From a virus, in the IMG/VR virus record IMGVR_UViG_3300025127_000023, positions 1-64,000 of that record: 64,000 bases of DNA; one strand, 5' to 3'. The notes below the pieces were generated by a model. The model was not told where the DNA came from and did not search any database. It worked only from the letters and a program-made list of their open reading frames with translations. Of this stretch, positions 19,285 to 48,700 are shown piece by piece (the stretch's first letter is position 1; each line of letters starts with the position of its first letter). A program made the translations under genes and the position numbers.

Positions 19285-19493
19285 TACCAAGTGAAGCACT
19301 TGAAGAAGCGTGGGGCTTGATGAAGGGCAAGAAAGATGCTCCGAATTACAGACCATGTGAAAGCAATAAGTGCTGTGGCAACTGCAAAGCATGGGACGAA
19401 TCAGCGACAGATAATCCAAAAACAGGCTATTGTGAATGGTATGATTTTACTTGCCGCGCAGATTACACATGTGATGCATGGGCCGGTAAGTGA
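19281..19493 (+). CDS. Small Cys-rich protein, likely metal-binding
   Basis: A 70-residue protein starting with an ATGA overlap. It begins IPSEALEEAWGLMK (the AW..LK-type motif), then has seven Cys in about 40 residues, arranged as C....CCGNC..W followed by GYCEWYDFTC and YTCDAW. The Cys/Trp/Tyr pattern recalls small HiPIP-like or zinc-knuckle phage proteins. The exact ligand cannot be told. The gene ends six bases before the next ATG. Confidence 0.8.
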   Translation: MIPSEALEEAWGLMKGKKDAPNYRPCESNKCCGNCKAWDESATDNPKTGYCEWYDFTCRADYTCDAWAGK

Positions 19494-19498
19494 TTGTC

Positions 19499-20902
19499 AT
19501 GTGGTCGGGGTCAATTCTCAAAGACGAAGCGTTTGAAAATGTCTTTGAGTCGCTATTGAAAAACTCAATTCAAGGCGGTAAAATTGGCGATGGTGAACCT
19601 ACAACTTCCGCAGGTCAAGGAGAATTAGCCGGTGCGACTGACCCACCAAAACCAAACAAGATACAGGAAGAGGAAGAGGAAGACAAAATTGTTGATGCTG
19701 TCACACAACGACTGAAAAAGAACATGCCGCAAAACGGTTGGTTTCAATCAATGTTTGGTAAAGACGCGGAAGCGATGGTCAAAGAATTGCGAATGGCTCG
19801 TCGCGAAAGAAAGGATATGCGAGATGATATTGACCTTGCAATCAACGCCATACGATTAGCAAAGCGTGAAGAGGTTGATTCAACACTCAAGTCAATTTCA
19901 TGGACGGAGAATCACCTTTCATCTATACGCGGTCTTGGTGTGTCCGACAGGGACTTGCAAGCGTTGAGAAAACACGGTTCTTCGCGAGAGTTTGCTTTGA
20001 GGCGAGCATGTAGTGAATGGGAGAAGGCGAATGATGTCATCTCAAAATTGGCTCAAGTTGAAGGTGATTTTGACGAAAACCAATTGGAAATGTGGTTGCA
20101 AGCAAATCAAATGAGAAAAGACGCGAAGAAGCAATGGAAGCAAACATTGCATTCAATTGACAATATCAAAAAGCAAGAGGCCATTTGGCTTACGCGCGCA
20201 ACAAATGTCCTTACAGAAAGAGGACCGCTATCATCAAATGAGATTTTTAATTCAATCGGTTCTCCGAAACATCTTAGCGTTCGCAAAATGGCATCGCTGT
20301 TGAAGATGCATGGTGTTGAATACGACATTGAGAAAATAGGGACGAACTACGGAATAGTCCGCGATGACTTTGTTATTGTCAAGGATATTTGGGCTTATGC
20401 GGCAGGTTTCCTTGACGCTGATGGCTACATCACAATTACGAAGCGAGGCGAACCAAGAGCCGGTTTTGTCGCGACGGGTGGCCGTGGTAAGATTCATTGT
20501 GAGCAGTTGCACAAATCTCTCGGTTGTGGTGTGCTACAAACTGATTTGAAAATACACAAGAACAGTAAACGCACACAACATCGTCTTCAATTCTATGGCG
20601 CGGATGATTTGAGAAAACTACTGAAAGGTATTCGCCCACATTTGCAAATGAAGAAAGCACAGGCTACTGCTGTCTTGCAGTTGCTTGATTTGAGGGGGGC
20701 TAAGAGCAACCTTGTGAAAGCAAGAAGGGACGAACTTTACCGCGTAGTGAAGTGGGAAAATTGGAAAGATGTTCCCGAAGAGCGCGATAAGTTGCTCCGA
20801 GAGTGGAAAGTTGAAGAGCATGAAGTTCTTGCATGGGGACAACGGGACAACGAAGTTATCCGACTCGTTGATGATGTTCACCGCATAGAGAGGTTGATTT
20901 GA
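19499..20902 (+). CDS. LAGLIDADG-endonuclease-like protein fused to a long helical and winged-helix N-terminal part
   Basis: A 467-residue protein (ATG 19499; the in-frame GTG 19490 overlaps the previous gene). Residues 1-230 are acidic then helical/coiled coil. A winged-helix-like segment follows (LTERGPLSSNEIFNSIG, then a beta wing GTNYGIV). The signature AAGFLDADGYITI near residues 300-312 is one LAGLIDADG motif with the catalytic Asp in place, followed by FYGADDLRKLLKGIRPHL and a KKAQATAVLQLLDL helix as in single-motif homing endonucleases. It lies between packaging genes and overlaps the portal start. It may be a selfish endonuclease or one recruited for packaging, as HNH proteins beside terminases are in HK97-like phages. 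Confidence 0.85.
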   Translation: MWSGSILKDEAFENVFESLLKNSIQGGKIGDGEPTTSAGQGELAGATDPPKPNKIQEEEEEDKIVDAVTQRLKKNMPQNGWFQSMFGKDAEAMVKELRMARRERKDMRDDIDLAINAIRLAKREEVDSTLKSISWTENHLSSIRGLGVSDRDLQALRKHGSSREFALRRACSEWEKANDVISKLAQVEGDFDENQLEMWLQANQMRKDAKKQWKQTLHSIDNIKKQEAIWLTRATNVLTERGPLSSNEIFNSIGSPKHLSVRKMASLLKMHGVEYDIEKIGTNYGIVRDDFVIVKDIWAYAAGFLDADGYITITKRGEPRAGFVATGGRGKIHCEQLHKSLGCGVLQTDLKIHKNSKRTQHRLQFYGADDLRKLLKGIRPHLQMKKAQATAVLQLLDLRGAKSNLVKARRDELYRVVKWENWKDVPEERDKLLREWKVEEHEVLAWGQRDNEVIRLVDDVHRIERLI

Positions 20903-22746
20903 TGGCAGAAGAAAAGAGAGGCGTAGTTGGCCGTTTTCTATCTTCGCTATCAAAACCATTCCGAAGACGAACCACACCCGAACCTATTATGCCTTTATGG
21001 AAGGCAGGTATTCAAGAGCCTGTCCTTGTTCAAGGTGTGAGCATTCCTGCTCTTTACGCGACAGTGCAAGAATCTGTTGTGTTGAGAACAACAATCAACA
21101 CGCTTTGCCAAGAAGTGTTTAGGCGCGGTCATTATTGGCAAAAGAAGTTTCACAAGAAATGCACCAACTGCGGAGAAGAATACAAACACGACACTGTTGA
21201 GCAATGTCGCGTTTGCGGCAACGAAGAGTTTGATGTTCCCGATGTTGACCAAATCCTTTACCCGCGTTGGTTTTTGGAACAAAGAAACAGTATGGACCAA
21301 TCATTTATGGATGTTATGCGCGAGATTGAGTGGGACTTGGATATTGTTGATGACGCATTTCTAATTCTCATCAAGGAGTATTTTATTGACCCCGATAACG
21401 GAGAGATTTCGTTCTTCCGTATTAAAGAAATCATGCGTGGCGACCCAACCTTCATGCGAATAGTCGCTGATAAAAGAGGGTCGCGTGGTGGCAGGTATCT
21501 TATTTGTCCTGTTCACCGCGACAAAACTTATCCTCACAATGGCGACCATCACAACTGCGATGTAGCCGGATGCGGATTACCTCTCCAAGATGTTCATTAC
21601 ATCAACACAGCAGGTAGTGGTAAAACGCAGTATTACATTGACGGTGAGATTATTCACACAAGCAAATACAATCCGTCAAAACTGTATGGTCGTAGCCCTG
21701 TTGCTACAATGTGGCGACAGGCACAAACACTCACAGCGATGGACAATTACATTTACCTCGCGTATCAAAAGCGAAGAATACCTCGCGGTGTTCTCGCAAT
21801 CACAACCGATAACATTCAATCAACTGCATCGTTTTGGAAGGGCGCAGAAGAAAAGATGGAGCGCGACCCTCACTACATTCCGAAAGTTGGTATTGAATCA
21901 GCATCGGGTCGTGGTAAAGTTGAGTTCGTGCGTTTTATGGATAGCCTTGATGAAATGCAATACGCGCAAGTTCGTGATGAAGTAAGAATGCGAATTGCCG
22001 CGTTCTATGGCGTATCAAGCATTTTCATGATGGACGCGGGCAAGTCCGGTGGACTCAACAATGAGGGTATGCAAATCCTTGTAACAAATCGCGCTGTTGA
22101 ATACGGACAGAAAATCTATGCGAAGAATCTTTTTCCGCGATTACTTCAAGCGATGGGTGTTGAAGATTGGGAATTGACACTTTATCCGAACGAAGAAGAG
22201 GATGATGTTACAAGACTACGCCGCGATGAGCAAGAAGTCAATATCGCACAGCGTATGCAACAACTTGGTTTCCAAGCAGAACTTACAGAAGATGCAGGTC
22301 GCGACATACGATTCGTTTACTCAAAGCCCGACCCACAGGAACAACAACAACAACCACCACAAGGCGGAGGCGGCGCACCTCCGATGGGTGGCGCACCTCC
22401 TATGCCCGGTGGCGGAATGCCTATGCCGCCACAACAAGGGCTACCTCCGGGCGGGGGAATGATGCCACCCGGAGGCGGGGGGCTACCTCCGGGCGGCGGA
22501 CCTCCGCCCGGCCAACAAGGGCAACCAATCATGATGATGGAGAAAGGGGGCATGGTTGGTCTTGGTGAAGGCACAGGGCAACGCGATAACGGACCTGCGC
22601 CTCTTTCATCCGAAACTCATCTAAGCGGTTCTCCGAAAACAAAGAAAAATCAACGCGGCTCGGAAAAAACCATTACTGAACAAGCACTTGATGCGGTTGA
22701 TGCCGCGAAAGACCCAACAAGCAAGAACAAAGAAAGCGGGTTTTAA
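20902..22746 (+). CDS. Portal protein with two inserted zinc-binding segments
   Basis: A 614-residue protein; ATG 20902 overlaps the previous stop (TGATG) behind GAGAGGTTGAT. Portal features: LYATVQESVVLRTTINTLCQ near the start, a wing/stem with KLYGRSPVATMWRQAQT, and AAFYGVSSIFMMDAGKSGG in the C-terminal clip part, as in phage portals of the SPP1/HK97 type. Portals form a dodecamer at one head vertex through which TerL pumps DNA. Odd: a zinc ribbon (CTNC ... CRVC) near residues 87-107 and a second Cys/His segment (CPVH ... CDVAGC) near 201-225 are inserted. The last 130 residues are Pro/Gly/Met-rich (GGAPPM repeats), then polar. Confidence 0.9.
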   Translation: MAEEKRGVVGRFLSSLSKPFRRRTTPEPIMPLWKAGIQEPVLVQGVSIPALYATVQESVVLRTTINTLCQEVFRRGHYWQKKFHKKCTNCGEEYKHDTVEQCRVCGNEEFDVPDVDQILYPRWFLEQRNSMDQSFMDVMREIEWDLDIVDDAFLILIKEYFIDPDNGEISFFRIKEIMRGDPTFMRIVADKRGSRGGRYLICPVHRDKTYPHNGDHHNCDVAGCGLPLQDVHYINTAGSGKTQYYIDGEIIHTSKYNPSKLYGRSPVATMWRQAQTLTAMDNYIYLAYQKRRIPRGVLAITTDNIQSTASFWKGAEEKMERDPHYIPKVGIESASGRGKVEFVRFMDSLDEMQYAQVRDEVRMRIAAFYGVSSIFMMDAGKSGGLNNEGMQILVTNRAVEYGQKIYAKNLFPRLLQAMGVEDWELTLYPNEEEDDVTRLRRDEQEVNIAQRMQQLGFQAELTEDAGRDIRFVYSKPDPQEQQQQPPQGGGGAPPMGGAPPMPGGGMPMPPQQGLPPGGGMMPPGGGGLPPGGGPPPGQQGQPIMMMEKGGMVGLGEGTGQRDNGPAPLSSETHLSGSPKTKKNQRGSEKTITEQALDAVDAAKDPTSKNKESGF

Positions 22747-23830: not shown

Positions 23831-26800
23831 GTGTCAAAAGAGAATGCAGTTCGTTATCACCAACGCGTGATGAACGACTACATTCAAGCACGATTCATTC
23901 ACAAATCCGAAGCACTCAACGAAGCCGCAGATGTTCTGTTCAGCAGAAACAATTTGCTCAATTACGGCTACGCGCTACCACCATTTATTCGCGAAGTTGA
24001 AGCGCATATCCAAAAGGCTGTTGAGATTGAAAGAACAGCACAAGACCAACAGCCCGGCGCGCCGAATGTAGGCGAGCAGGGGTATGGTGAATCCGCAACC
24101 CTCTCCGATAGAGCATGGCGGCGTATGATGCGTGAAGGCCACGCAGGAGCGCAGACAGGTGTGGGTAAACGGCACTCGCGAAAAATGCGCGATGTTGTCG
24201 GAAGAGATTTAGACACAGATGACCCGAATCCAAAAGCGCGCAGAAGGGCGTTAGAACGCATATACCGTTGGCGAGGTAATCACAGCGAAAACCGTCAACA
24301 CACCGAGTTCCAACCTCATAAGGCGCATCATTTAGCAAAACTCGGCTTCTTTGGTCGTCCGGGCGCAACACCTAACCTACACGGTCATACTCCGTTGGCC
24401 TTCAATCTCATTCAAGAAACATATCATCGTTCACCCGGCAAATTGGACGAGATGATGATTGAGGCTGAAAAGCACATGCCACCTGCCACGACAAGCGACC
24501 TCATGCTTGGTAAGTGGAGTGGTGATGGTGTCACACATGATAAATTGAGAAAGCAAGCGTTGAGAAGGTTTAGGGAAGCGCATAGAGAAAAGTTCCCTCA
24601 AAGCAGACAGCCCGACATCAATGATTTTTTCCACCACAAGATGTATGAGTTGCGCGGCGTTCCAAGCGACCAATTGTTTGATAGCGACTTGTATGACCAA
24701 GACACAGGACAGATGACCTACGCGAACATTGATGACATGGTGAAACAAAACCGACATCGCGAGATGGGATTCTTACCCGTTATGCTTGGTATCACGATGC
24801 TTGACTATGAAGACCAACTCAAAGTAATTGATTGGATGGTGAGTGGCGGAGGCGCAAAAACAGACGAGAACGGGAAGTTCCTTGCCTCCGAGAGTTTTGA
24901 TGATTCGCTACTTGAAGAGGCGTTTGGTAATGAGCGACATGCGCGCGGTTTCGTATCTCGCAACATGAAGTTGTTTTCCAAAGCATTGCATCAACTCTAT
25001 TCCGGCTTCCCCGGCAGTTCACATGCAGGAACAGTCGCGGGACGACCAAGCGATGAGCAGATGAAAGGGTTTCAAGACCGTTCACCAAAACTTGTTTTGG
25101 ACGCAGAAGGTAATTGGCAACGCGTCGCAGGTAAGAACTCAATCCAAAGAAGGCGCGAAGAGTTTGCGAAAGACCCCGAAGCGGTCAATGACAGTTGGCG
25201 ACAGAAGGGTATCAAGTTTGACGCAGACCGTTATGATGAGATGATTGAAGAAGTGCTTGGTAGGGATATAGCGGCGAACATTCGTAAAGTGACAGGCATC
25301 AAACACAAGAAGGAAATGCCGATTATTCCCGACTTTGAATATGCAATCAAGTTGGGTATCGTGTCGCCCGAAGATGTGCAAGAAGCACAGAATCACATTG
25401 TAGCGAGCGCGAATCATCAAATATCCACGGCAGAACACTTCGGTTTGCTTGAGAATTACAACCACACTCACAAATTGAAAGACCACACTTTTCATCCGAA
25501 GGACAAACCGGAATACGAAGAAACACCGCTTGACTTTGTTGTTCACGCTTTAGGTAATGGTATGGGTTCACTTTCGCGCGAATGGCATGAGATAGCAGAC
25601 GCTTTTGCGGAGTTTGCCCCCGGTGTGTTTTTCAGCAACTTGGCGAAAGAAGTGCCTCCGAAGATTTTCCCTTCTCGCGGCCTTCCCGATACGAGAGGCA
25701 ACTACAAAGGCAACAAACCCGTTATGCAAAGTTGGCAATACACCGACGACATGAGCAACGCTGAAAGGATTGAACACGCCAAGTCTTTGCGAAGATGGCT
25801 CAATGAAATGGGCGCGAGTAAAGAAGAAAAGGATAGCGCGGAAGCGAGATTAGCGGACGGTAAACGAGTTGAATATGAAGCCTATCCAAGCCGACCCGAT
25901 GGTAAGTCGCAATCACAAGCAACGCGCGAAATAATGTCTTTGCCGGAAGATGAAAACAGACCGGGAGAGGGTAGCCTTGATTTGGACTTCTCTCAAGAAG
26001 AGTTTGAGATGGCTTTGAAAAACAATCCTCAATACTACCCCGCGTCGCCGGGATTGAACTTCTTGCATTGTTTACTCCCTTACAGCATAGACATGCCGAT
26101 GGGTGGTATTCTGTCCGCAGAAGCAAAGTCGGGCAGAACCAACAACAACTATTCCTATCACCCTTCATCAACGCATAGAGCGCAAAGAGCCGCCGCGATG
26201 AGAGAAGCGGATGACGGAAGGACATTTCGCAGTGGTCAACAGATTTACAGTGAATTGGAACAGGCGACCAAAAAGCGTGGATTTTACGACCATTCATACA
26301 ACACCAATCTAACCAAAGACGACGCTCTCGCGATGTTAGCAAGAAAGCATTTGTTGGTCGCTAACGCGCATCATCATCCGACAACTCACGATGAAAAACA
26401 TCACGAAGAGTGGAAGGAGAGAGCCGCGAACTCAAAGTCAATCCTGTCGTCCAAAGACCACAAAGATGTCTTGGGGCGACCCGACGCTGATATGGCAAGT
26501 GAGTTGGTTGGCACTGAACCATTTGAAGACTACGGCAGTGCGATATACGACAGCGAGCAATACACGAAAGCGTTGGGTGCGCATGGTGATGGTAAGATTT
26601 TGAGAGTTCAAGCCTTGCACAACAAGTCATTTGCAGGATTGGGGGAACTGAAAGAGTTCATTCTCGCGAACACAACCGACGCGAAAGGAACACCTGTTGG
26701 TGAATTGGACTATGGCACACGAAAAAGAATCTTGGAGAGTGCAGAAGAAGGAGAGTTCAAAGGCTTCTATGTCAATGATGAGGGACAAGTGAAACGCTTG

Positions 26801-29800
26801 AACAGCGCGCCTTCCGAGCAACAACACTATCAGTGGGCTTGCAAAACAATCCGTGAAAGAGTCCGCGATGCAGTAAGAGATGGTAAAGAGGACATCGCTG
26901 ACTTGGCAACTCAACAACTGCATCAACAAATGAAACACGCGCACAAAGTAACGGGTGTCAATCCAACACCATCTCCACATGAGCGTATGCAATACGAAAT
27001 AGACCACGCGCTACAAACACATGAAGCAACAAAATTAGCAACAAAAGTCTTCATTCCTCTTATTCAAGCAACTCACCCTAACGCTCTCCGCACAGGAACA
27101 GCGCGAGAAAACAACGAGGCTCACCCGAACATGGCAGTTGTTTACAACATGGCTGAACGGTTTATGCGAAACAAGACACCGGAACAGCGCGAGAAGTTCC
27201 TTAGAGATGGCAAAGTGCATTATCTCAAAGAAGACGGTGATGTTGGAGAACTTGACATAGCGGACTTTTGTAGTGAAGATTTGAGAAATGAAATCCGCGA
27301 CTTTACAGTTCCGCGCATGTCGTTTACTGAACCTGCGCCGGACTTGAGAAACGCGGAACAGCACTTCGCACCTTTGGCAACCAAAGGTCAAGAACCAACG
27401 GGCAATCATGTGCTTGAAGCGTTTGTCAATGGCGATATAGGTCGTCAAGACCCCGAATTAGGAAAGGAATACAGAATTGTTCAAACCGTCTTTAATAGAG
27501 CGCGTAATGCATGTAAGGACAAAAACAGCACCGAGGAATTGATGAAGCGAGTGTATGCCCGATACATTCCTCACAACAAGGACAGTCAAGAACCAATTGA
27601 GAACGCGAAGCATAATTTCATTCGCAATTTAGGCGACCATCATCATGAAGGAACATATCGCGTGGACGGTCAAACTGTAATCCCGTTGATGAGTGGCGGA
27701 GAGGGGGTTAGTATGCATGAGGCTCATGGTAATAGGCGGCGTAATGAGTTTATCTCACAAAGGACAGAAATCAAGGCGTTGAACGCTGTGTTGCAGGACA
27801 TCAAATCTCAAACACAAGGCACACCTTATGCCTCCGACTTGGGCGACACATTTACCTTGATGGCTCAAAAGAAAGCGATGCAGAAACTACCGAGAAAATT
27901 GAAGGAGGTCTTCGCTGAACTCGCGAACCCAACGAAGTTGAAAGGTGAGAGGGGAGCCGCACCTGCTAAATTGATACAGCAAAAAGTCGGAGGTCGTCAT
28001 CCCGACCACGCGCCTCTTCCTGCTATCAGTGATTGCTTGGCGGGTAAAGACCAAGTAGGAATAACTGCTGACCCTGCCTTCTTATTCCGCGATGCTTACA
28101 TGGGACATGAAGACCCCGAAAGCAACAAACTGTTGTTGGATAATCCGAAGAAGAACCACTTTCACCAATCAGCAGGGCGGCATGTAGCGCATGTATCTCC
28201 CGATTTGCTGAAAGATTGCTTTGAAGGAATGAACAATTACGATGGTTCAATTTACCAAAACCATGAGCAACAACCATTACAGATTACTTCTTCTCAACTA
28301 CCGGCGGGAGAGGGCATGAACACAGACCAACGCGCCGCACAAGTCGCAATGGACGCGGCAACCAACAACTCGCAACAGTTCTTTCAACTGTGCGCGGATA
28401 GGGTCACAGACGATACTTTACTCATCAAAGATGATGGCAGACCTGTTCCTATCAAATCAATGCACAGAATCTTTGACCTTGATGATTTGAAACACCTTCG
28501 CGGATTTAGCGGCGATTGGATTGCTTCGCACATACCAAGCGGTGAGCCTGTCATTCTGCAAAAGAAAGGTAAGCGCGTCAAAGCATACAACGCGGAGATG
28601 AAACTTGTTGAGTTAGCAGACTGTTGTGAAGAGGACATTCCTAAAGTGAATGACAAAGATTTCGTTGTTCACGCCGTCGTTGGTGATAGGATGGTTTACT
28701 TCATTGATTTGCTTGAAGCAGGTGATGAGAAGACACACAACATGCCCGCCAAAGATAGGGTAAGACACTTACGCGCACAATTTGAATCAACAGAAACCGT
28801 CAAGATGCCCGAACCATACAACACAAAACGCAGTGATGATGCAGGTTTGGCGCAAGCGGTTTCGTTGTTGCGCGACGAAGCACCAAGCGATATTCTGTTG
28901 CGCGATGCTTCTGCTACCTACATGAGAGGCGAGATACGACACCCGAAGTGGATTTTGTTAAGCAAGGAAAAGAAGGTTGATGTCATCGTTCTTGACCGCA
29001 AAGGCACAAATTATCGCATCGGTGTTGGTCCAATCATGCACCCCGAAAACTACGGTTCGCGTTCTGTTGAGTTTGAAGGCAATCATTACATGGATATTGG
29101 AAGCGCGAAAGGACCGAGAGGTTTTGACAAAGGGGAGTATGTGAGTGTATTCTGCACAGGCGTTTCATCCAATCAAGCCGAACACCCTGTATTCACAATC
29201 CGTTCTGCGCGTATTGACCGTGATGCTCACCCTCAAGCGGCGGATAGCGTTGAGTCGCTATCCATCATGCTTGGTGAATCCAAAGTGCCACACCGAGCGC
29301 GATTGAAGAAAGGTCGCATTCACATTGAGTTCCCTGCGGTTCATGATGAAGTCATTTACGATGTCATCAAAGAAGACGGTGGTTGGATGCTGAAACCACA
29401 GAAGAGTATGTGGGGGACTGATGATTACTTGTTCAAACTGTCCGAAGATATGCGACAGTTTTGGCAACCAATTGCAACAGTGTTGTTGAAGCGCGACTCC
29501 GAGAAGATGATTGACAGGGTTAATCGCGATGAAGACGATGAAGTGAAACCGGAAGAACCCGCAGGACACAGAAAAGAACGAAAAAAGATACTCCCGAAAG
29601 AAGAAGAAATCATCAAACGCGGTCTTGAGTTGCTTGAGCGATTGCGTAAGGAGAAGATAACACACACCGGAGTTGAAGGTCTTGGTGTTGATTTCGCAGA
29701 TGCAGATGTTGAGTCCCCGCGAGGTCCAACAACCAACATGAATGATGACACAATGCCGGACTTTGACCCTGCGGCTCGCGAATACAAAGAAAAACCTGCC

Positions 29801-29899
29801 GAAACCAACAAAAAAACGAAGCGTATTCGCACCACTGAAGGCGAAGAAGCCATCACTGACCATCGCGGCAACATCACAATTACTGACCCGCGCGTTTGA
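23831..29899 (+). CDS. Giant protein with a C-terminal degenerate ATP-dependent DNA ligase-like core
   Basis: A 2,022-residue protein starting at GTG 23831 behind GAGGTGGTGG. Residues 1-1530 are His/Asp/Lys-rich and unrecognised. Residues about 1535-1800 follow the layout of an ATP-dependent DNA ligase: an adenylation-domain start (GDWIASHIPSGEP, 1561-1573) and a GKRVKAYN strand. Then come FVVHAVVGD and YFIDLL (motif III/IIIa area, 1611-1628), SDILLRDASATYMRGE (motif IV area, 1686-1701), HPKWILLSK (motif V area), and an OB-fold-like tail (YMDIGSAKGPRGFDKGEYVS). The catalytic Lys of motif I is Ile1568, and the acidic residues expected in III and IV are Ala/Ser. It is therefore probably an inactive nucleotidyltransferase fold reused for DNA binding or structure. 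The tail (1840-2022) is charged. Confidence 0.75.
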   Translation: MSKENAVRYHQRVMNDYIQARFIHKSEALNEAADVLFSRNNLLNYGYALPPFIREVEAHIQKAVEIERTAQDQQPGAPNVGEQGYGESATLSDRAWRRMMREGHAGAQTGVGKRHSRKMRDVVGRDLDTDDPNPKARRRALERIYRWRGNHSENRQHTEFQPHKAHHLAKLGFFGRPGATPNLHGHTPLAFNLIQETYHRSPGKLDEMMIEAEKHMPPATTSDLMLGKWSGDGVTHDKLRKQALRRFREAHREKFPQSRQPDINDFFHHKMYELRGVPSDQLFDSDLYDQDTGQMTYANIDDMVKQNRHREMGFLPVMLGITMLDYEDQLKVIDWMVSGGGAKTDENGKFLASESFDDSLLEEAFGNERHARGFVSRNMKLFSKALHQLYSGFPGSSHAGTVAGRPSDEQMKGFQDRSPKLVLDAEGNWQRVAGKNSIQRRREEFAKDPEAVNDSWRQKGIKFDADRYDEMIEEVLGRDIAANIRKVTGIKHKKEMPIIPDFEYAIKLGIVSPEDVQEAQNHIVASANHQISTAEHFGLLENYNHTHKLKDHTFHPKDKPEYEETPLDFVVHALGNGMGSLSREWHEIADAFAEFAPGVFFSNLAKEVPPKIFPSRGLPDTRGNYKGNKPVMQSWQYTDDMSNAERIEHAKSLRRWLNEMGASKEEKDSAEARLADGKRVEYEAYPSRPDGKSQSQATREIMSLPEDENRPGEGSLDLDFSQEEFEMALKNNPQYYPASPGLNFLHCLLPYSIDMPMGGILSAEAKSGRTNNNYSYHPSSTHRAQRAAAMREADDGRTFRSGQQIYSELEQATKKRGFYDHSYNTNLTKDDALAMLARKHLLVANAHHHPTTHDEKHHEEWKERAANSKSILSSKDHKDVLGRPDADMASELVGTEPFEDYGSAIYDSEQYTKALGAHGDGKILRVQALHNKSFAGLGELKEFILANTTDAKGTPVGELDYGTRKRILESAEEGEFKGFYVNDEGQVKRLNSAPSEQQHYQWACKTIRERVRDAVRDGKEDIADLATQQLHQQMKHAHKVTGVNPTPSPHERMQYEIDHALQTHEATKLATKVFIPLIQATHPNALRTGTARENNEAHPNMAVVYNMAERFMRNKTPEQREKFLRDGKVHYLKEDGDVGELDIADFCSEDLRNEIRDFTVPRMSFTEPAPDLRNAEQHFAPLATKGQEPTGNHVLEAFVNGDIGRQDPELGKEYRIVQTVFNRARNACKDKNSTEELMKRVYARYIPHNKDSQEPIENAKHNFIRNLGDHHHEGTYRVDGQTVIPLMSGGEGVSMHEAHGNRRRNEFISQRTEIKALNAVLQDIKSQTQGTPYASDLGDTFTLMAQKKAMQKLPRKLKEVFAELANPTKLKGERGAAPAKLIQQKVGGRHPDHAPLPAISDCLAGKDQVGITADPAFLFRDAYMGHEDPESNKLLLDNPKKNHFHQSAGRHVAHVSPDLLKDCFEGMNNYDGSIYQNHEQQPLQITSSQLPAGEGMNTDQRAAQVAMDAATNNSQQFFQLCADRVTDDTLLIKDDGRPVPIKSMHRIFDLDDLKHLRGFSGDWIASHIPSGEPVILQKKGKRVKAYNAEMKLVELADCCEEDIPKVNDKDFVVHAVVGDRMVYFIDLLEAGDEKTHNMPAKDRVRHLRAQFESTETVKMPEPYNTKRSDDAGLAQAVSLLRDEAPSDILLRDASATYMRGEIRHPKWILLSKEKKVDVIVLDRKGTNYRIGVGPIMHPENYGSRSVEFEGNHYMDIGSAKGPRGFDKGEYVSVFCTGVSSNQAEHPVFTIRSARIDRDAHPQAADSVESLSIMLGESKVPHRARLKKGRIHIEFPAVHDEVIYDVIKEDGGWMLKPQKSMWGTDDYLFKLSEDMRQFWQPIATVLLKRDSEKMIDRVNRDEDDEVKPEEPAGHRKERKKILPKEEEIIKRGLELLERLRKEKITHTGVEGLGVDFADADVESPRGPTTNMNDDTMPDFDPAAREYKEKPAETNKKTKRIRTTEGEEAITDHRGNITITDPRV

Positions 29900-29926: not shown

Positions 29927-31372
29927 ATGGCAATTCTTGCACCCTCTCAATCCACCCCTCTTGTTCTCAAGGGGTTCGGTGATGATTTGGTTGTCGCAGG
30001 TTATGCTTCTGTTGAGATGGTTGACAAGCAAGGCGACCTCATTACTCGCGGTGCTTTGAAAGATGCGTTTAACGGATTCATGAAAGCAGAAGGATTCCGC
30101 AATGTGCAACTTGCACACTCTAACATTCAAGTGGGAACAGTGATTCCCTCTTACACTGACAGCAATGGCCGCGTATGGAAGTCCGAAGTGGACGATACCG
30201 GAATGTTTGTTGTCATTCAACTACGCGGCGATATTGAAAAGGCTCGCGAAGTTGCATCCGAAATCCGCAAGGGCAACCTGCGGTCGTTCTCAATAGGCGG
30301 TCAAGCCTTTGAGCGCGTCAACAAAAGCGACGCTACTCGCGGAGATTACCGCGAGATTCGTCGTATGGAACTCCATGAGGTTACGATTTGTGAGAAGGGT
30401 ATCAATCCCGAAGCGCAGTTTCGCATTCTCAAGGAAGACACAGGTGATACAATGACTGACCCAATGAGCGAACTACAAAGCGTATTAGAAAGGCTATCCA
30501 AGAAATTGGATGACGAAGAAGACGACAAGAAAAAGAAGGACGAGGATTCCGAAAAAGGGAAAATGCCTCGTTCACTTGACCCCGATGGCGACGGCGACCC
30601 CGGACCATTCGGTGATAAACCAAAGATGAAAACTCCACCTCGCGACGACGACGACGACGAAGACCCGGAAATGGGAATGTATGAGGACGACGACGACGAC
30701 GAGGATGACGAGAACGAAGACATGATGTATGGTGATGACATGACAGCAAAAGCAGAAGATATGATAACGATGGACTATCTCAATTGGCTTGAGCAAACAG
30801 CAAAGAGTCAAGGACATGACATTGCTGACGCTCGCGCCCATTTTGATAGCGTGAACAAAGGATATGGACCGGGCGAGCCGGGCTACACCCACCGAGGACA
30901 AGGTTCTCTTGAGGGTGCAGGTGAAGGCGAATCCTCCAAGCGACCGAAAATGGACTTTGGTGCGGCTCCAAAAGGCAACACCAATGTCATCAAAGCGACT
31001 GAATACTTGAACAGTGAAAATGTTTCACAGTCCGATATTGAAGCCGCTTACGAAGTTTACAAGGCGGCGGCTACTGAACAGCAGTTCAAAGGCTCACTTG
31101 GCAACTACTTCGCAGAAAGGCTCGCGGCAGAACAGACTATCGCGAAGAACGAGAAGGCAAAGACCGAGTTTGATGCTCGCAAGCCTCTTCTTGAACTCCA
31201 AAAGGCTGTTGTCGCGCTTGACCAACGCATCAGCAATGTTTCAACCACAGGAGAAACTTTCGCAAAGAGTGCTGACAGCACTTCAATTCGCGTTCCCGAT
31301 ACTACTGAAATGGCAAACATGTCGTGGGATGATGTTCACCGACTTGCCGACAAAGCATTGAGGGGAGAGTGA
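29927..31372 (+). CDS. Prohead protease fused to an acidic scaffold-like region
   Basis: A 481-residue protein. Residues 1-165 are an HK97/XkdF-type prohead protease (MEROPS U35-like): GYASVEMVDKQGDLI, the likely catalytic His64 in QLAHSNIQVG and the likely catalytic Ser122 (or 120) in LRSFSIGG, then EVTICEKGINP. Residues 170-275 are extremely acidic, with two runs of five or more Asp encoded by GAC repeats (30644-30658 and 30686-30700). The rest is helical and probably acts as scaffold. In this family the protease matures the prohead by cleaving scaffold and capsid ends. The C-terminus (MSWDDVHRLADKALRGE) matches a motif in a small upstream protein. The stop overlaps the start region of the capsid gene. 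Confidence 0.9.
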   Translation: MAILAPSQSTPLVLKGFGDDLVVAGYASVEMVDKQGDLITRGALKDAFNGFMKAEGFRNVQLAHSNIQVGTVIPSYTDSNGRVWKSEVDDTGMFVVIQLRGDIEKAREVASEIRKGNLRSFSIGGQAFERVNKSDATRGDYREIRRMELHEVTICEKGINPEAQFRILKEDTGDTMTDPMSELQSVLERLSKKLDDEEDDKKKKDEDSEKGKMPRSLDPDGDGDPGPFGDKPKMKTPPRDDDDDEDPEMGMYEDDDDDEDDENEDMMYGDDMTAKAEDMITMDYLNWLEQTAKSQGHDIADARAHFDSVNKGYGPGEPGYTHRGQGSLEGAGEGESSKRPKMDFGAAPKGNTNVIKATEYLNSENVSQSDIEAAYEVYKAAATEQQFKGSLGNYFAERLAAEQTIAKNEKAKTEFDARKPLLELQKAVVALDQRISNVSTTGETFAKSADSTSIRVPDTTEMANMSWDDVHRLADKALRGE

Positions 31373-31377
31373 TTAAA

Positions 31378-32544
31378 ATGGCACGAAATTATGTAAGAAC
31401 AGTTCAAGACATGGAGCGATACTACTACGGTGGTGCGGCTCAAACCGGATATACCTACTCAAGTGGCGACATTTTGAAGGCTGACAGCCCTCTTATGTCA
31501 ACCACCGCAGGAACTTACCAAGCAGTTTACGGACGCAAAGTTTGGTCGCAGTTGAACCAAGAGTTCAACGCGTTTTCAATCTTGCCGAAGAAGCCGTGGG
31601 AGCGCAGTGGATGGCGTATTCTTACCGAGCGCGCCTCCTTCACAAAGGGCGGCGGTGTTGCTGAAAACGCAACGCTACCGGAAACCTCCCGACCGGAGTT
31701 CCTGCATGTGGCCGCAAAGCCAAAGACCATCGCGCATACTTTTGACTTGTCCGAAGTGAGCATGTTCTTGTCCGACAAGGACGATGGTATGGGCGATGTC
31801 CGCCAAGTTCTCAAAGAAGAGATGGGTAAGCACCACGCGGAGCATGTCAATCTCATGATGCTTGAAGATGTTACGACTCCTGCCGGAAACGACTTTGAAT
31901 CTCTTGACAGGCTCACTTCCGACCCTGCCAAGCAGACCACCACGCAAGGTGCAGTGAACACCCTTACCGACCACGACATGTATTCAATTACTCGCGACGG
32001 TAGTGCGGCATTCCACAGTGCAGAAGTTGACATTGGCGGCGACGCTTCAACTTCCGCGACCAACCGAAACCTATCGCTGAACCAACTTGATGGTCTATTC
32101 CAACAGATTTGGACTCGCGGTGGTAATCCAAAGGTCATGCTAACAGGATATGATACGCTTATGCGCACTCAACAACTGTTGCAATCCCAACAGCGATTCA
32201 TGGACTCCAAGAGAATCACACCTACTTACTCCGGTGTGAAAGGTGTTCCGGGTATTGAAGCAGGTTTCATCGTTGCTACTTACAACGGTGTCCCAATCAT
32301 CCCAACAAAGGATATGCCGGACGACAGCGCGACCTCCGCAGGTTCACTGTCCCGTATCTATTACCTTGACACTGACTACTTGTGGTTCCAAACTGCTATA
32401 CCAACGCAATACTTTGAGTCCGGTATTGAAACCGGCGACCCATTCGCGATTAACCGTCTTGGACAAGAGGGGCTTTACCGAACAATGGGCGAACTTTGGT
32501 GTTCGTTCTTTGGTGCAAGCGGGAGTATTCGCAACCTACAATGA
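31378..32544 (+). CDS. Major capsid protein, HK97 fold
   Basis: A 388-residue protein starting at ATG 31378 behind GGAGAGTGAT (an in-frame GTG at 31369 overlaps the protease stop). It directly follows the protease, as in HK97-type modules. An N-arm (RTVQDMERYYYGG) is followed by an E-loop-like part with KPWERSGWRILTE and GGGVAENATLPETSRPEF. A spine helix region follows (EEMGKHHAEHVNLMMLEDVT), then P- and A-domain segments (GGNPKVMLTGYDTLMRTQQL; NGVPIIPTKDMP; YYLDTDYLWFQTAIPTQYF). This pattern is typical of tailed-virus capsid proteins, including archaeal ones. It forms the icosahedral shell. Confidence 0.92.
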   Translation: MARNYVRTVQDMERYYYGGAAQTGYTYSSGDILKADSPLMSTTAGTYQAVYGRKVWSQLNQEFNAFSILPKKPWERSGWRILTERASFTKGGGVAENATLPETSRPEFLHVAAKPKTIAHTFDLSEVSMFLSDKDDGMGDVRQVLKEEMGKHHAEHVNLMMLEDVTTPAGNDFESLDRLTSDPAKQTTTQGAVNTLTDHDMYSITRDGSAAFHSAEVDIGGDASTSATNRNLSLNQLDGLFQQIWTRGGNPKVMLTGYDTLMRTQQLLQSQQRFMDSKRITPTYSGVKGVPGIEAGFIVATYNGVPIIPTKDMPDDSATSAGSLSRIYYLDTDYLWFQTAIPTQYFESGIETGDPFAINRLGQEGLYRTMGELWCSFFGASGSIRNLQ

Positions 32545-41536: not shown

Positions 41537-42747
41537 TGCCAAAGATACGCCTTGTGAGAAAGGACGGTGGGTTGCTGACCCTTGACGCAACATCGTTTAG
41601 CATATCCATGAACCGTTCTGTGCCTGTAATTCCTATTCCTGTTCTTGCTGAAAGAATGGGTATTGATACGAACACTGTCGCGACAGACATACAGATTGAC
41701 TGTATTTTGGTTGATGATGATTGCGCGGCTACGGAGTTTTTGAGTAGGGCGGCATCTTGCACGATTGACTTTGGTGCAGGTGCAGATACGAGCGCAGGGC
41801 AAACACAGCAATGGTTCGGGGGCAGTGTTGCACTGTCGGACTTGAACGGTAAATCGTTCAACATATCATCGCTGTATCAGTCTTCAAGTCGCATCATTCC
41901 CCCTATTCGCGTTTTGTTTGATACTTCAACAGCAAGTCATTCATCGTCCGGTGGAGGTTCTAATCCAACAACCACTGTCGGTATTCAAGGTATCACCACT
42001 GCCGCGCAGTTAGCATCAACCATCAAGACGGCTCTTGACGCATCCGATTACTCACCAACGCAAGTTGCGACATCGGGCGCGACAACATTCGCGAGTGTAT
42101 TCTCCACATCAGTCGGGGCAGGTAAACTGTCTGCAACCGGCAACTCAAAACTCACCATTACGCAGGTTGAATTGGGTGGCAACGGCAACAACGCAACGCC
42201 GATATTTTGGACTGATGCAGACAATGAAGACTTGTCAAAACCCTTCCACACATCGTTCAAAGGTGGTAGCGCGCACGATTGCAGAAGCGCAGGGGATAAG
42301 TTGCAAGACCTCATCGGGTATGTTGGTAATGCTTCTTTGATGGGCGCAGTTGGGAGCGTGTTTGATGTGTTTGGTAGCGAAGCCGGTGGAGAAGCCGGTG
42401 GGTTTGACATGACAGGAGAACTCTCAACCATTAGCGGAGATTTGGGAACTGACTACATTGTAGGCATACAAATCCCCTTTAATTCCTTGATACAGAAAAC
42501 AGCCGTAAATGCTGACGAGAATAGTTATGTTACGCGCAATCTGCTTATTGTTTCCGGTTTGAATAGCGCGGAAGCCCAATCATCAAAGGGCAACACATTA
42601 CCTTCCGGTGTGGTATTTGATGTGAGCGATAAGTTCACAGGCATACGCGGGACGGTAGTGGGAATGAGTTTTTCCTACGATGCAGGAAACAACATTTACG
42701 AGGGAAGCCTAACATTCCAACCTCTTGATTTCATGGTGGGATTGTAA
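41536..42747 (+). CDS. Putative distal tail/baseplate protein
   Basis: A 403-residue protein, ATG sharing the last A of the previous stop (TAATG) behind GAGGTG. The beta-rich N-terminus (KIRLVRKDGGLLTLDATSFS; SMNRSVPVIPIPVLAERMG; DIQIDCILVDDDC) resembles tail hub proteins. A low-complexity Ser/Gly/Thr-rich middle follows, and a C-terminal part with AEAQSSKGNTLPSG and ends in strands. It lies directly between tape measure and giant tip gene, where distal tail proteins are usually encoded. The assignment rests mostly on order. Confidence 0.65.
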   Translation: MPKIRLVRKDGGLLTLDATSFSISMNRSVPVIPIPVLAERMGIDTNTVATDIQIDCILVDDDCAATEFLSRAASCTIDFGAGADTSAGQTQQWFGGSVALSDLNGKSFNISSLYQSSSRIIPPIRVLFDTSTASHSSSGGGSNPTTTVGIQGITTAAQLASTIKTALDASDYSPTQVATSGATTFASVFSTSVGAGKLSATGNSKLTITQVELGGNGNNATPIFWTDADNEDLSKPFHTSFKGGSAHDCRSAGDKLQDLIGYVGNASLMGAVGSVFDVFGSEAGGEAGGFDMTGELSTISGDLGTDYIVGIQIPFNSLIQKTAVNADENSYVTRNLLIVSGLNSAEAQSSKGNTLPSGVVFDVSDKFTGIRGTVVGMSFSYDAGNNIYEGSLTFQPLDFMVGL

Positions 42748-45700
42748 TGTCAATGTTCGGCAAGACAAGTCATGCGCTATACTTCAACGGAGTTAGCGAT
42801 AGCGTTGTCTGCCCTCAAGGTGGGTTCACCCAAACAGGACACAAACTGATTGACGGTAGTGGTAATGTCGCAAGAACTTCCGCGCATGTTGTAAATGACG
42901 GGGACGCGTTGCAACACGCGTTCTCCAAGAACCAAGCCCTCACTTCATTCACTATTGAAGCATGGGTGTCGCCGGATTGCGGAGGAATTATTGCAACGAA
43001 AGAAGGCTCATTTACTTTGAGAATGGGTAGCGTAGGCGCACCTGCACCTGCTTCGTTTGAAGTTGTGTTGGACAACGGCGTATCAGTTGCCGCACACTCA
43101 AAGCACAATTACCCAACAAATGCAGAATCGTTTATCGCGAACAATAACGGGGTAAGCACCGCGCAAAGAGAACTGTATCATATGTGCGGAGTCTTCACAG
43201 GAGAGCAAGTCAAACTCTATGTCAATGGAGAAGTCATGGCAACTGAAAAGTTGAACGGTAAATACCGAACCAAAATCAATGACCAAGATTTGTATATCGG
43301 TGGTCAAGGTGGAGAATATCGTGGCTACATTGAATCCGTTCATTGGCAACGCGGTCCTAAATCAACCGACCTCAAACCTATTGCGTTCATGAAAGGGTCA
43401 TCAACAATTGGTCTTTGGAGATTTGAAGAGCCGGTTGAGATTGACGACAATGTTTACCACATCAAATCAAACGCGTTAGCGGGTGCTACCACACTCACAC
43501 TTGACACCACGCAAGTGCAAACGCTTTACCGTTCCATCAGTGGCAAAAGCGACACATTCACCGGCACATACACTCCCGAAAGTCTTGGCAACTATCGCGT
43601 TATGAACTCAACACAAAACACAGTTGTTGATGTCGCGCATAGTCAAATCAATCTTCTCATCAATCCAACCGGAACTGACATCAACACAACGCTACCAAAC
43701 AGCAAACCACCCGAAAGAGTAAGGTTGTTGAGCATTCAATCAACAGGCACTATCACGGTATCAAGCACACACCTTGATTTCAACACAACTCCAACGAACG
43801 GGTTGCGAGGTATCTTACATGCGCGCACAGCCTATCATGTAGGCAACAACTTGGCTCACGATAGCACTATTGTCGTGATTCGTTCCGATTTGTTGATTGA
43901 CAGCCAAAGCGGTAAACCGTATCAAATGCAAGGTATGGGAACACAAGCGATTGACAGAAACGGTTCTATGGTTGTTGACGAAAGCGGAAATGATTTTCAT
44001 GGATTCGTCTATTCAAGGCGTTGCTCAATCAACGAAGGCGGAAACCCATTTACTGTTTCTGCCGCAAATTGGACTGTTGACGACAGGTTTCAAATCGGAC
44101 ACAACGGGCGACACAGATACAATCACACCGAAGGTCATTCTTTTTTGAGAATGTTGCCTCCTACATCAAAAGAAGTGATTGAGCGAACGATTGACGGTGT
44201 TGCCGATTCAATGAGAGCGACATTCCCTGCCGCGCATATCGGCATCAAAGAACAGTTGCCAATCAACTCTCGCGTATCAATGTCCTATACAGCCTTCACA
44301 GGTTCTATTCGCAGAATCAAAACAGACGCAACAACAACGCATGTTGTCCTCAATGGTATGAGAACACACGCGTTAAACAAAGACGGCGTTCTTGCGATAG
44401 GTGTTGATGACATACGACCATTTCTTCTCAAAGGGTTTGGGGTTGACAATGTGGATGACGATAGCACCACTCACAAAATGCACTTATTGCCCGAAGACAA
44501 ATCCCGTATTGCCATTATGGAGGTATCGGGAATATCATCGCTACCGTATGTTGAGATTCACTACAACGCGATTGATTTGACAGGCTCAAAAATGGGTGTC
44601 AACAAACCATGTCTGTTGGTTGAAAAGACTGTGCCAAGTGCAAACACAAGCATTGACGGTGATACAGTCGCCGGACACATTGCAACTGCGGTAGGTGCAA
44701 CAATTCATTCTGCCGGTGGTATTGTTTCAATCAGCAAAGACAGCGTTGGTGATGCGCATACGGTAATGAACCCGCACCGTTTAATTGGTGATAACACAGG
44801 TGGCACAGAAAAAGAGATTGAAATGGACGAGTCGCGATTACCTGCTGTTTACACACCTACTAATGCAGAAGACTTGCCTCAATCAGCACCAATTGCTATT
44901 CCTTCATCAAACGAAGAAACCTCCCACCCTTCTGTTTATCATCGGCTTATTCTTTACCCGAACGGAAGAGCGCAAAGCGACCCTCCTATCAATGAAGCAC
45001 CCGCGCATTATCAAGAACAAGTGCAATTTGCATCTCAACAAGGCGCGGCATTTGAAGTATTTGATGTGATTGACAATTACCAACTCAATAACGAACATCA
45101 CATTATCATTCAACCTGCACAAAAAAATCGCTCAATGCAGTTATCAAGAACTGTTGGCGCAAGCGATGACCCTAATGACCATACCTTCGCAAGCCTTGAG
45201 TTTATTCAAGGTCAAGGAAGAGTCAACTCATTCCAAGTTGTTGAGAAGAAAGGTAGTCGCGAAGTTGTGTTAAGAGCGCGCGGACTGATGGCAGATGTCG
45301 CAGACCAAAGCGCGACATACACAGGTGATGCATCACCGGATTCTCACGGTGTCAAAGAAATTATGCCGGGCGCGCCTGTTGTAGCAATCACGCTTGGTGG
45401 TGCGGGTCAAGGCGCAATCAACACAAAGCCATCTTGGGACCCATCTTCCTTATCTCGCGTTGGTTGGAACACAAGAAGAGCGTGTGGCGCAATCATCACT
45501 GCCACACAAAACACCTCAACAGGCTCATTGGATTGGCCGTTTGTCAAAACAGCAACAATAACCGTTGCTCCTCTTAACAACGAATCACCCAATCTTGGAA
45601 GTTGGGGAACATACTGCTTCCCGCCGGTTGGTAAAATCTATCTTGACAATGGGGCTTGTGCGCATTACATATCACGAACAGGAACAGATTTCACATTTGA

Positions 45701-48700
45701 TTTAGAAGCAAACGCATATGCGTTAAAATACGGAAGAGAAGGTGTATTTCTTAACGCGAATGGCACAACAGCCGATTCGTTTCACGCATGGAAATTAGCC
45801 AACACTATCAAACCCGGAACTCAAATCCTTGTTGATGACAAGTTTGACGAACAAAGCATATGCGCTGATGGCACAACTGTAAACGACAGATTGTTTCAAT
45901 CGTTGGGAACAATATCGCACGATTACCAACTCGGCACTCAATACGCTTCAACTCGCGCGCTTGTTGAAATACCAATCTTCCCCAATCAATTTTTTGAAAA
46001 TCGCGAAGCGGGGATATTCCCCGGACCCGATAACAGCATGAAGTTGCATCTTGATGCGACCATGACCGCGCATACTTGGTGTCCTTCACCTGTTGGGCGA
46101 AGAAGTCAAAATCGCAACGCAAGAGATGACGAGATATTTGGACCGTATTACGAACGCAATTACAATGACGAACCTATCCGCGTTGAGGTAGCCAAAGTCT
46201 ATCAACAAACAGTCAGTGGCAGTATCGGTTATTTTGCTCGGTTGATACCAACACACATGACAAGAGTGCCACACAGTAGCCTCACAGCAAGTGGTAGCGT
46301 AAGAGGTATGAACGGTCAAAATTGGTTAAGAAAAGTCTATCTTGAAAATGGTGAATGGTGCTATTATGTCATCAACGATGCTTCACCAAGAAACGACACC
46401 ACCAATAGCAGAATTGAATTGTTGACATTCGCGACACACCACAGCGAGAACTTCTTTCAAGACATTCAAGCAGGTTCAGTTTTAACAATCGGGCAATTAC
46501 CTTACAAGGTCTTCAAACCTCTTGCAAGTGATACCTCGCAGAATACAAAAACTTCTGCTAATGAATACAGAAGGCCATACTACTACGACCGCGCAAACAT
46601 GCAGACACAGGGAGGAAACTTGGACTATGGTTTGCGACAGTATGTGAGTGCAATTGAGTTCAAAGCAGGGCCATTATCCAACCCTCACCTTCCCCGTATT
46701 GAAACAGGTGTCGCGCAAATCAAAGTGTTAAGTGTTGTAGCAGTAGGACCGCCCACAGTTGTTGAGTTTGAGAACTTCAAAGGAGTCCTACCAAAAGGAG
46801 AATTACCAACCAATTACTTCTATTCCTACATCAACCTCGCGAACGGAGATGTAGGAACAATTGTTTACCAATCATCAACAGAAGAAACACAAGTCAGCAT
46901 TGTTCATGGTGGAACTGCGCCTGTTGCGGGCGACATCATTGAGATAACCGGAATAACCTCAAGCACTGAATACCCTCAAACCATTCAAGACGGTTGCTTA
47001 AACGCGACATGGAATTATCCGTTTTGTCCGGGTGGATTGCGCTATGGTGATACAATTTGGATGAACATGCACTACACAAACCCTCACGCCATAGAAGGGT
47101 TGTTCGCCAAGTCGCGAGGCGTATTGAATGAACACGATGTATGGAACGGGTTTAACGGTGGTAAAGGTGAGTTGGCAACACAAGCGCGAGATTCATTACC
47201 GATTGAAAACTTCTTAATTGGTAATACCTGCATTGAAACTGCGCGTAATTTTGTTCAGCATGTCAACAAAACCATTGAGTTAAATTGGACTGAACTCGGA
47301 CATTCAACAAACCCTCCCGTTGTCGCATATCTTGACCCTTACCTAAGCACCGAACAGCATTCTCGCGTTTTACTTTACGATGTTGCACACGACCGTGAGT
47401 TTATCGCATTCCATGATTTACACATGCAAGTTCAATCAAGCGCGGCAACTCCAATTATCAATGAACTTGATGTGGCCGCAGGATTCGCAACTCAAAGAAA
47501 GGACAAAAACCCTGCTCGCGGCTCTCCAATTACTCAAACAATCAATTCAGTCAGTTATGGATTTGAGGTCATGCAAGGACATTCTCAATTTATTGAGGGT
47601 GCATACGCACACGCTTCTTGGTATTTGATGGACTACGGCTACCAAACCGCATCAACAGGTCAATTTTCTAAGGCCAATCGTCAAACTCCACACATTGTTA
47701 AAACGACTTCTCTTATCAATTCAAAAGAACATGACCGGCTTGAACCATCGGTGTTAGATAACGCGCAAGCACAACTCCGACATGCAGAAAACATGCTACA
47801 CAATGATTCTGCAAAGATACGCGCAAATGCTTCGGATGCTTACAAGTTCACATCACGCTTCTTTGATACCCCGGACGGAACGCGAGTCATACCTGCGTTC
47901 CTTTGCATGAAGGGTAATCGCAGTAGCAACATAACCTCAATCAATAGCAACAATGAAAGCGCGAGATTGCAGAACTTACCTCATTGGTATGCGATGGATT
48001 TCACAAGAAGACTTACAGTTGATTTTGGAGAAGTAGGAATACGCGATGGTGTCACAGACATAGAAGCCGCCGCAAAAGAGATTGTTCGCCTTATCAATCA
48101 AGCGGGTGCAAAGAATGGTAAGAGTAGCCAAAGGCGACCCTCCGACCAATACCCCGGCGAAGGAGAACGATTTGACATTAACAGGCGCGCAGTATCAGCA
48201 AGTGGTGAAAATACATTTGAACCAAGCGACCCAACATCAGCGCACCATCATGCAGACTTTGCAACCACAGGTAGCACACATGACCCTGCTCCGTTTTGGG
48301 ATGACAGCGCATTTACATCATACGATAGAGGTTCGCACATGGGCTATCTTCGCGCTCATATAGGTCGCGTTGTTGAAGACATTGACGGCAACGAAGGTTT
48401 CTCAATCATTATTCACAGCACCGTTCCCGGTGCGACAGGTCGCAATTTTTGCGTGTGGATGGATAATAGCAAAGGCCAAACAGAATACAAACCGCAATAC
48501 CTTATTGGTCATGGTGGTCATTTCCGCAACTTCTTTTGCTCACAGCCCGAAATATCCGGCGAAAACATGCACCCCGCGCCTATGCCAATTGACAAAAACG
48601 GGAAACCTTTTGCTCCTATCACTACGCTACGACAACACTTACCCATTGATGAAGCACATGGGGACGCGAAAAACTCACAGAATCTTGGTAGCGATGAAGA

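Follow-up and report, generated by a model that had tools for sequence, protein, structure and literature searches.

A giant viral head-module protein carries what is very probably a dead DNA ligase core

Results

It is very probable that the C-terminal module of a giant protein encoded among the head genes of the virus studied here is a dead DNA ligase core, and the presence of such a core in a capsid-module protein appears to be new. The window, which is the whole stretch of DNA that was analyzed, comprises 64,000 nt of a virus record of 69,532 bases. The giant protein is a 2,022-aa open reading frame (ORF) with a GTG start (23831-29899, plus strand, as for all its features given below), delimited from the ORF list and from full-length homologues. 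In a limited literature search, no description of a dead ligase was found among virion or capsid-module proteins. As far as this search went, the statement of the first-pass annotation that no case had been described holds for proteins of this kind; for viral ligases without activity as a whole it does not hold, given the example of poxvirus A20 (PMC11142717).

Ligase fold of the C-terminal module

Judged from sequence profiles and a predicted structure, residues ~1517-1815 of the ORF are an ATP-dependent DNA ligase core, made up of a nucleotidyltransferase and an OB subdomain. The domain of the window protein alone gives no Pfam match, and the relationship was detected by aligning 39 family sequences (alignment A1) obtained from 80 related viral contigs that had been retrieved with the capsid protein. 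When the profile of this alignment was compared with the PDB, the five best sequences were archaeal DNA ligases (E 0.02-0.5). The alignment follows the successive motifs from IIIa through V, and motif I is covered by a second, weaker stretch. Matches to Pfam DNA_ligase_A_M were obtained for 16 of the 39 members (E<=10), a single one of which, L079, passes the curated cut-off (27.7 versus 26.2 bits).

The AlphaFold2 model of the module, computed without templates, has a core pLDDT of about 82-93. In the Foldseek search with this model, every one of the best 50 PDB matches is an ATP-dependent DNA ligase (E 3e-14 downward, probability 1.00), and most of the leading named matches in a viral structure library are DNA ligases as well. 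The TM-scores against DNA ligases are moderate (0.34-0.50), possibly because the orientation of the two subdomains differs and because the C-terminal extension has no counterpart in these enzymes. On the N-terminal side of the nucleotidyltransferase domain, no DNA-binding domain of the ligase type was recognized. Given that a one-to-one hhalign comparison of the module with the HGTV-1 ligase was not significant, the case for the fold is carried by the profile search, the Pfam matches, and the structure search; these are independent of each other and lead us to reject a chance resemblance to ligases.

The adenylation subdomain (aa ~1517-1710, 28379-28960) is defined by the predicted structure, by the profile alignment to PDB ligases, and by the Pfam matches of the relatives. 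It is followed by the OB-like subdomain (aa ~1711-1815, 28961-29275), recognized from the strands of the model, which extends to a degenerate motif VI region where an ADSVESL-type stretch is retained. A conserved alpha/beta extension (aa ~1816-1895, 29276-29515) is seen in the model beyond this point, and the protein then continues into a tail (aa ~1896-1997, 29516-29821) with the conserved columns KEKIT..G..GLG...SPRGPT...PDFDP. An adenylation plus OB core had been proposed in the first-pass annotation for 28430-29230 (aa 1534-1800), from a series of short strings that are all present in the ORF in the order given there, and it had named AlphaFold and Foldseek as the means to check it. The profile, the Pfam score of L079, and the structure search all point to DNA ligases; the core lies where it was placed, but it extends beyond those coordinates as far as the OB/motif VI region (~1815), and the conserved tail continues to ~1996.

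Loss of the active site

The residues that perform catalysis in DNA ligases were surveyed in 97 distinct domain sequences, and their loss throughout the family is strongly supported by these sequence comparisons. At motif I, I1568-P-S-G-E-P1573 (28532-28549) replaces K-x-D-G-x-R, so that Ile1568 and Ser1570 stand at the positions of Lys and Asp of KxDG. This register agrees with the profile alignment to the Thermococcus ligase, in which profile position 68, two residues past Ile1568, falls on the motif I Asp. None of the 97 sequences has a lysine at the first of these positions, which is occupied by W (54), Y (22), I (10), F (5), S (3), or M (3). At motif III, H1614-A1615-V1616 (28670-28678) replaces DGE, and the Glu is absent in 97/97, its position being always hydrophobic (I/V/M/L). 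The stretch from motif IV to motif V, LLRDASATYMRGEIRHPKWILLS (aa 1689-1711, 28895-28963), is the most invariant of the protein. It has R1691 at the position of the motif IV Lys (Arg in 96/97), mostly K, D, or other residues at the position of the motif IV Glu, and L1709 and S1711 in place of the motif V lysines, the first of which is replaced by L/M/I/V in every sequence. Motif VI, RxDK, is degenerate, with the Arg and Lys lost, although the A-D-S-V-E-T-L-like stretch that follows it is retained. The loss of catalysis that had been called from the window sequence at motifs I, III, IV, and V extends to the whole family.

The basic positions on the phosphate side are partly kept, with the motif I Arg retained in 67/97 sequences, Arg in place of the motif IV Lys in 96/97, and R1703 invariant. 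Near-invariant basic residues include R1546, R1643, R1648, R1691, R1703, and K1706. Invariance reaches 97% or more at 34 positions, most of them within LRDxxxTYMxGExRHPKW. Nonetheless, the module is acidic, with a net charge of about -4, unlike a typical DNA-binding surface. The dN/dS of the module is 0.02-0.12 (ten pairs), which indicates strong selection and makes the module a maintained pseudoenzyme; together with the near-invariant stretches, it rules out a decaying pseudogene.

The giant protein and its gene neighborhood

Full-length homologues of the ORF range from 1776 to 2577 aa (81 distinct sequences in the loci compared), and in these the ligase-like module stops 120-166 residues short of the C-terminus, or 258 in one case. 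Column conservation is ~0.2 over the first 1500 residues, rises to ~0.6 from residue ~1517, and stays high into the tail. The N-terminal ~1500 aa (23831-28378) evolve fast and have no recognizable fold or homologue, given that Pfam, PDB-profile, and hhalign comparisons, the latter with halovirus head proteins, gave no match. The C-terminal tail, which has no counterpart in the other proteins of the window, may act as a signal for cleavage, packaging, or docking.

The place of the gene between those of the portal and the protease, as described in the first-pass annotation, is fixed. The portal protein (20899-22746, plus strand) was identified by PHROG (2.5e-75), Pfam Phage_portal, and halovirus homologues, and its gene lies upstream in 53/53 loci with room for it. 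The prohead S78 protease (29927-31372, plus strand; Pfam Peptidase_S78, 2.8e-9) is encoded directly downstream, with a gap of -64 to +47 nt, in 137/137 loci with room. It is followed in the window by the halovirus-like major capsid protein of HK97 type (31369-32544, plus strand), assigned by PHROG, Pfam, and homologue comparison, and the terminase, portal, protease, capsid, and tail-tube genes of the record are all on one strand. From this arrangement we infer that the giant protein is present in the virion, while synteny does not prove incorporation.

Other ORFs of the window were also noted. Between terminase and portal, the ORF at 19490-20902 has similarity to HNH endonucleases (PHROG, 4.6e-11) and weak methyltransferase- and Gam-like similarity. 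A single open reading frame of 5,657 aa occupies 42747-59720, downstream of the tail genes, and an open frame of more than 2,500 aa without a Pfam family (2-7531) runs off the start of the window.

Identity of the virus and distribution of the module

The best assignment of the virus is to the magrovirus-type archaeal tailed viruses (Caudoviricetes) of marine archaea. Its capsid and portal proteins are 22-33% identical to those of the Haloarcula tailed viruses (Druskaviridae) and of two methanogen viruses, and a TCP-1/cpn60 chaperonin gene (Pfam 3.6e-108) is found on the opposite strand just past the window (67993-69513 of the record; 7993-9513 of L088). Given that magroviruses have been placed beside Druskaviridae (PMC8651126) and contain chaperonins (PMC10768690), these features lead to the assignment. 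PolB is absent from this 69.5-kb fragment and present in 11 related records.

No relatives were found in cellular genomes or in 50,697 annotated phage records, and a search of PHROGs gave no meaningful family. Large proteins are likewise encoded between portal and protease in the haloviruses HCTV-1 (gp106-109) and HVTV-2 (gp113-115), but these have no homology to the giant protein or to its ligase module detectable by hhalign or profile search, and the proposal that the giant protein is a homologue of the halovirus head proteins finds no support in either.

A second ligase-like protein

Matches to PF01068 in the long magrovirus-type records fall only inside the giant protein, save for a weak one in record G018, and no intact NAD-ligase was found in nine of these long records. 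In the 11 related records that carry PolB, the domain of the giant protein is the sole clear Pfam ligase match. The weak match corresponds to a standalone protein of 459 aa (L202, G018:74278-75654) encoded beside an RFC-like ORF. It belongs to a second ligase-like family (A4; L202-L206, L208, L209, L214-L247, L255-L257), with members of ~415-525 aa that are nearly invisible to Pfam and that were found in all 11 PolB-bearing records. In record G010 (20484-21748) the second ligase-like gene is split in two frames (L207/L210) and PolB is also frame-broken, possibly as a result of sequencing or assembly errors.

The AlphaFold2 model of the second protein has a pLDDT of 85.6 and matches archaeal and human DNA ligases in Foldseek over ~570 alignment columns (E 1e-16), which is consistent with a predicted DNA-binding domain followed by nucleotidyltransferase and OB domains. 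Weaker matches were to snurportin and to poxvirus A20/A22 complexes. KxDG is absent from every member of this family, including three divergent ones, and aligning the two ligase-like families with hhalign gives a co-linear match that is not significant. From their sequences, the magrovirus-type viruses thus seem to possess a pair of dead ligases but no recognizable active one, with the reservation that an active enzyme may have escaped recognition or that parts of the genomes may be missing.

Discussion

The reading that we favor is that the module acts as a non-catalytic clamp or scaffold in the head, in packaging, or in ejection, and we regard it as having close to an even chance of being correct. 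The long variable N-terminal part would be a protein of head assembly or of the head interior. The module derived from the ligase, in which basic positions of the nucleotidyltransferase and OB subdomains are retained, would hold viral DNA (an end, a nick, or the packaged strand) or else a nucleoprotein partner, either at the portal or inside the head, during assembly, packaging, or ejection. The basic positions kept on the phosphate side speak for DNA binding, and the role of DNA or nick/end-binding element put forward in the first-pass annotation is plausible. Protein binding is favored by the negative net charge and by the precedent of A20. On balance we place DNA binding slightly ahead of protein binding, with DNA as the inferred ligand of the module.

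A somewhat less probable explanation, which draws on analogy, is that the dead core serves as a protein-protein scaffold, docking the prohead protease, the portal, the capsid shell, or the viral replisome in the manner of A20, whose inactive ligase middle domain links parts of the poxvirus polymerase holoenzyme (PMC11142717). The strict adjacency to the protease gene would fit this role, as would the acidic module and the many invariant residues that are not basic, e.g., D1552, W1563, D1626, Y1697, M1698, W1707, S1806, and W1878. The near-invariant RHPKW and R1643/R1648, however, resemble contacts to nucleic acid or phosphate.

It is unlikely, in turn, that the old nucleotide pocket still binds a nucleotide or a nucleotide-like ligand without chemistry, by analogy with snurportin-1. 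The aromatic residue (W/Y/F) that replaces the motif I Lys in 81/97 sequences could then stack on a base, and weak Pfam SPN1_m3Gcap_bd matches occur in 12 of the 39 members. Nonetheless, the window protein has Ile at this position, the remaining nucleotide-contacting residues are gone, and the snurportin matches are below the cut-off and expected from the common fold.

It is very improbable that the module is an active enzyme with displaced chemistry, as its ligase fold and the description of magroviruses with an ATP-dependent DNA ligase (PMC12999244, PMC10768690) would have it, because the motif I Lys, the motif III Glu, and the first motif V Lys are missing in 97/97 sequences and motif VI is degenerate. 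Least probable of all is an artefact in which a different fold merely resembles ligase motifs: the window sequence alone has no Pfam match and the hhalign comparison with the HGTV-1 ligase is not significant, but profile search, Pfam matches in relatives, and template-free fold search agree independently.

A wider reading, which we put forward as tentative, is that these viruses maintain two ligase pseudoenzymes, one a clamp for DNA ends or the portal within a giant virion or head-assembly protein, and the other an A20-like polymerase cofactor in the replication module. They would themselves lack an active ligase; the "ligase" credited to their replisome would not ligate, and the host enzyme would be needed. 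Magroviruses carry their own ATP-dependent ligase in the current view and replicate with little help from the host. If both ligase-like proteins are inactive, the magrovirus-type viruses must use the host ligase, and a likely misreading would be corrected for some very abundant marine archaeal viruses. As a dead DNA ligase within a capsid-module protein of a virus, the module would be without a described precedent, and it would add a second viral lineage, besides the poxviruses, for the conversion of a ligase fold into a scaffold. A part usually credited with DNA joining has probably been given a new use in the virus particle, where it would bind or serve as scaffolding.

Comparison with known systems

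Snurportin-1 has an m3G-cap-binding domain that is a non-catalytic relative of the nucleotidyltransferase fold and binds the m3G cap. This domain (PF21974) shares with the module the loss of catalysis, and receives weak Pfam matches from family members, but snurportin-1 is a cellular nuclear-import adaptor for the cap nucleotide and does not have the paired nucleotidyltransferase and OB domains of DNA ligases. A non-catalytic role is also known for yeast DNA ligase IV (PMC3694833).

The middle domain of the poxvirus processivity factor A20/A22 is a parallel in that it is viral and an inactive ligase, with catalytic subdomain and OB, kept as a scaffold (PMC11142717). It differs in belonging to the replication holoenzyme of a eukaryotic virus, in its size of ~240 residues, and in the lack of a connection to capsid genes and of demonstrated sequence homology to the module. 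The window protein lies in the head module and does not share the place of A20 in replication machinery; the second ligase-like family is found beside an RFC-like ORF in one record.

In magroviruses, an ATP-dependent or DNA ligase is listed among the replication genes (PMC10160649, PMC12999244, PMC10768690) and treated as an active gene of replication or repair, whereas the giant head-module protein lacks the catalytic motifs. Given that the domain of this protein is the only clear Pfam ligase match in the 11 PolB-bearing records, the published annotations may partly refer to it. The ligase homology of the module has probably been annotated earlier, apparently without remark on the lost active site.

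With the archaeal LigI-type ligases (Thermococcus, Pyrococcus; DNA_ligase_A_M, A_C), the module has in common the nucleotidyltransferase and OB fold and the motif order I-III-IIIa-IV-V-OB-VI. In contrast to these enzymes, it lacks the catalytic Lys, the Glu, the motif V/VI residues, and a detected preceding DNA-binding domain, and it is fused to a head-module protein of ~1500 aa and to a conserved tail.
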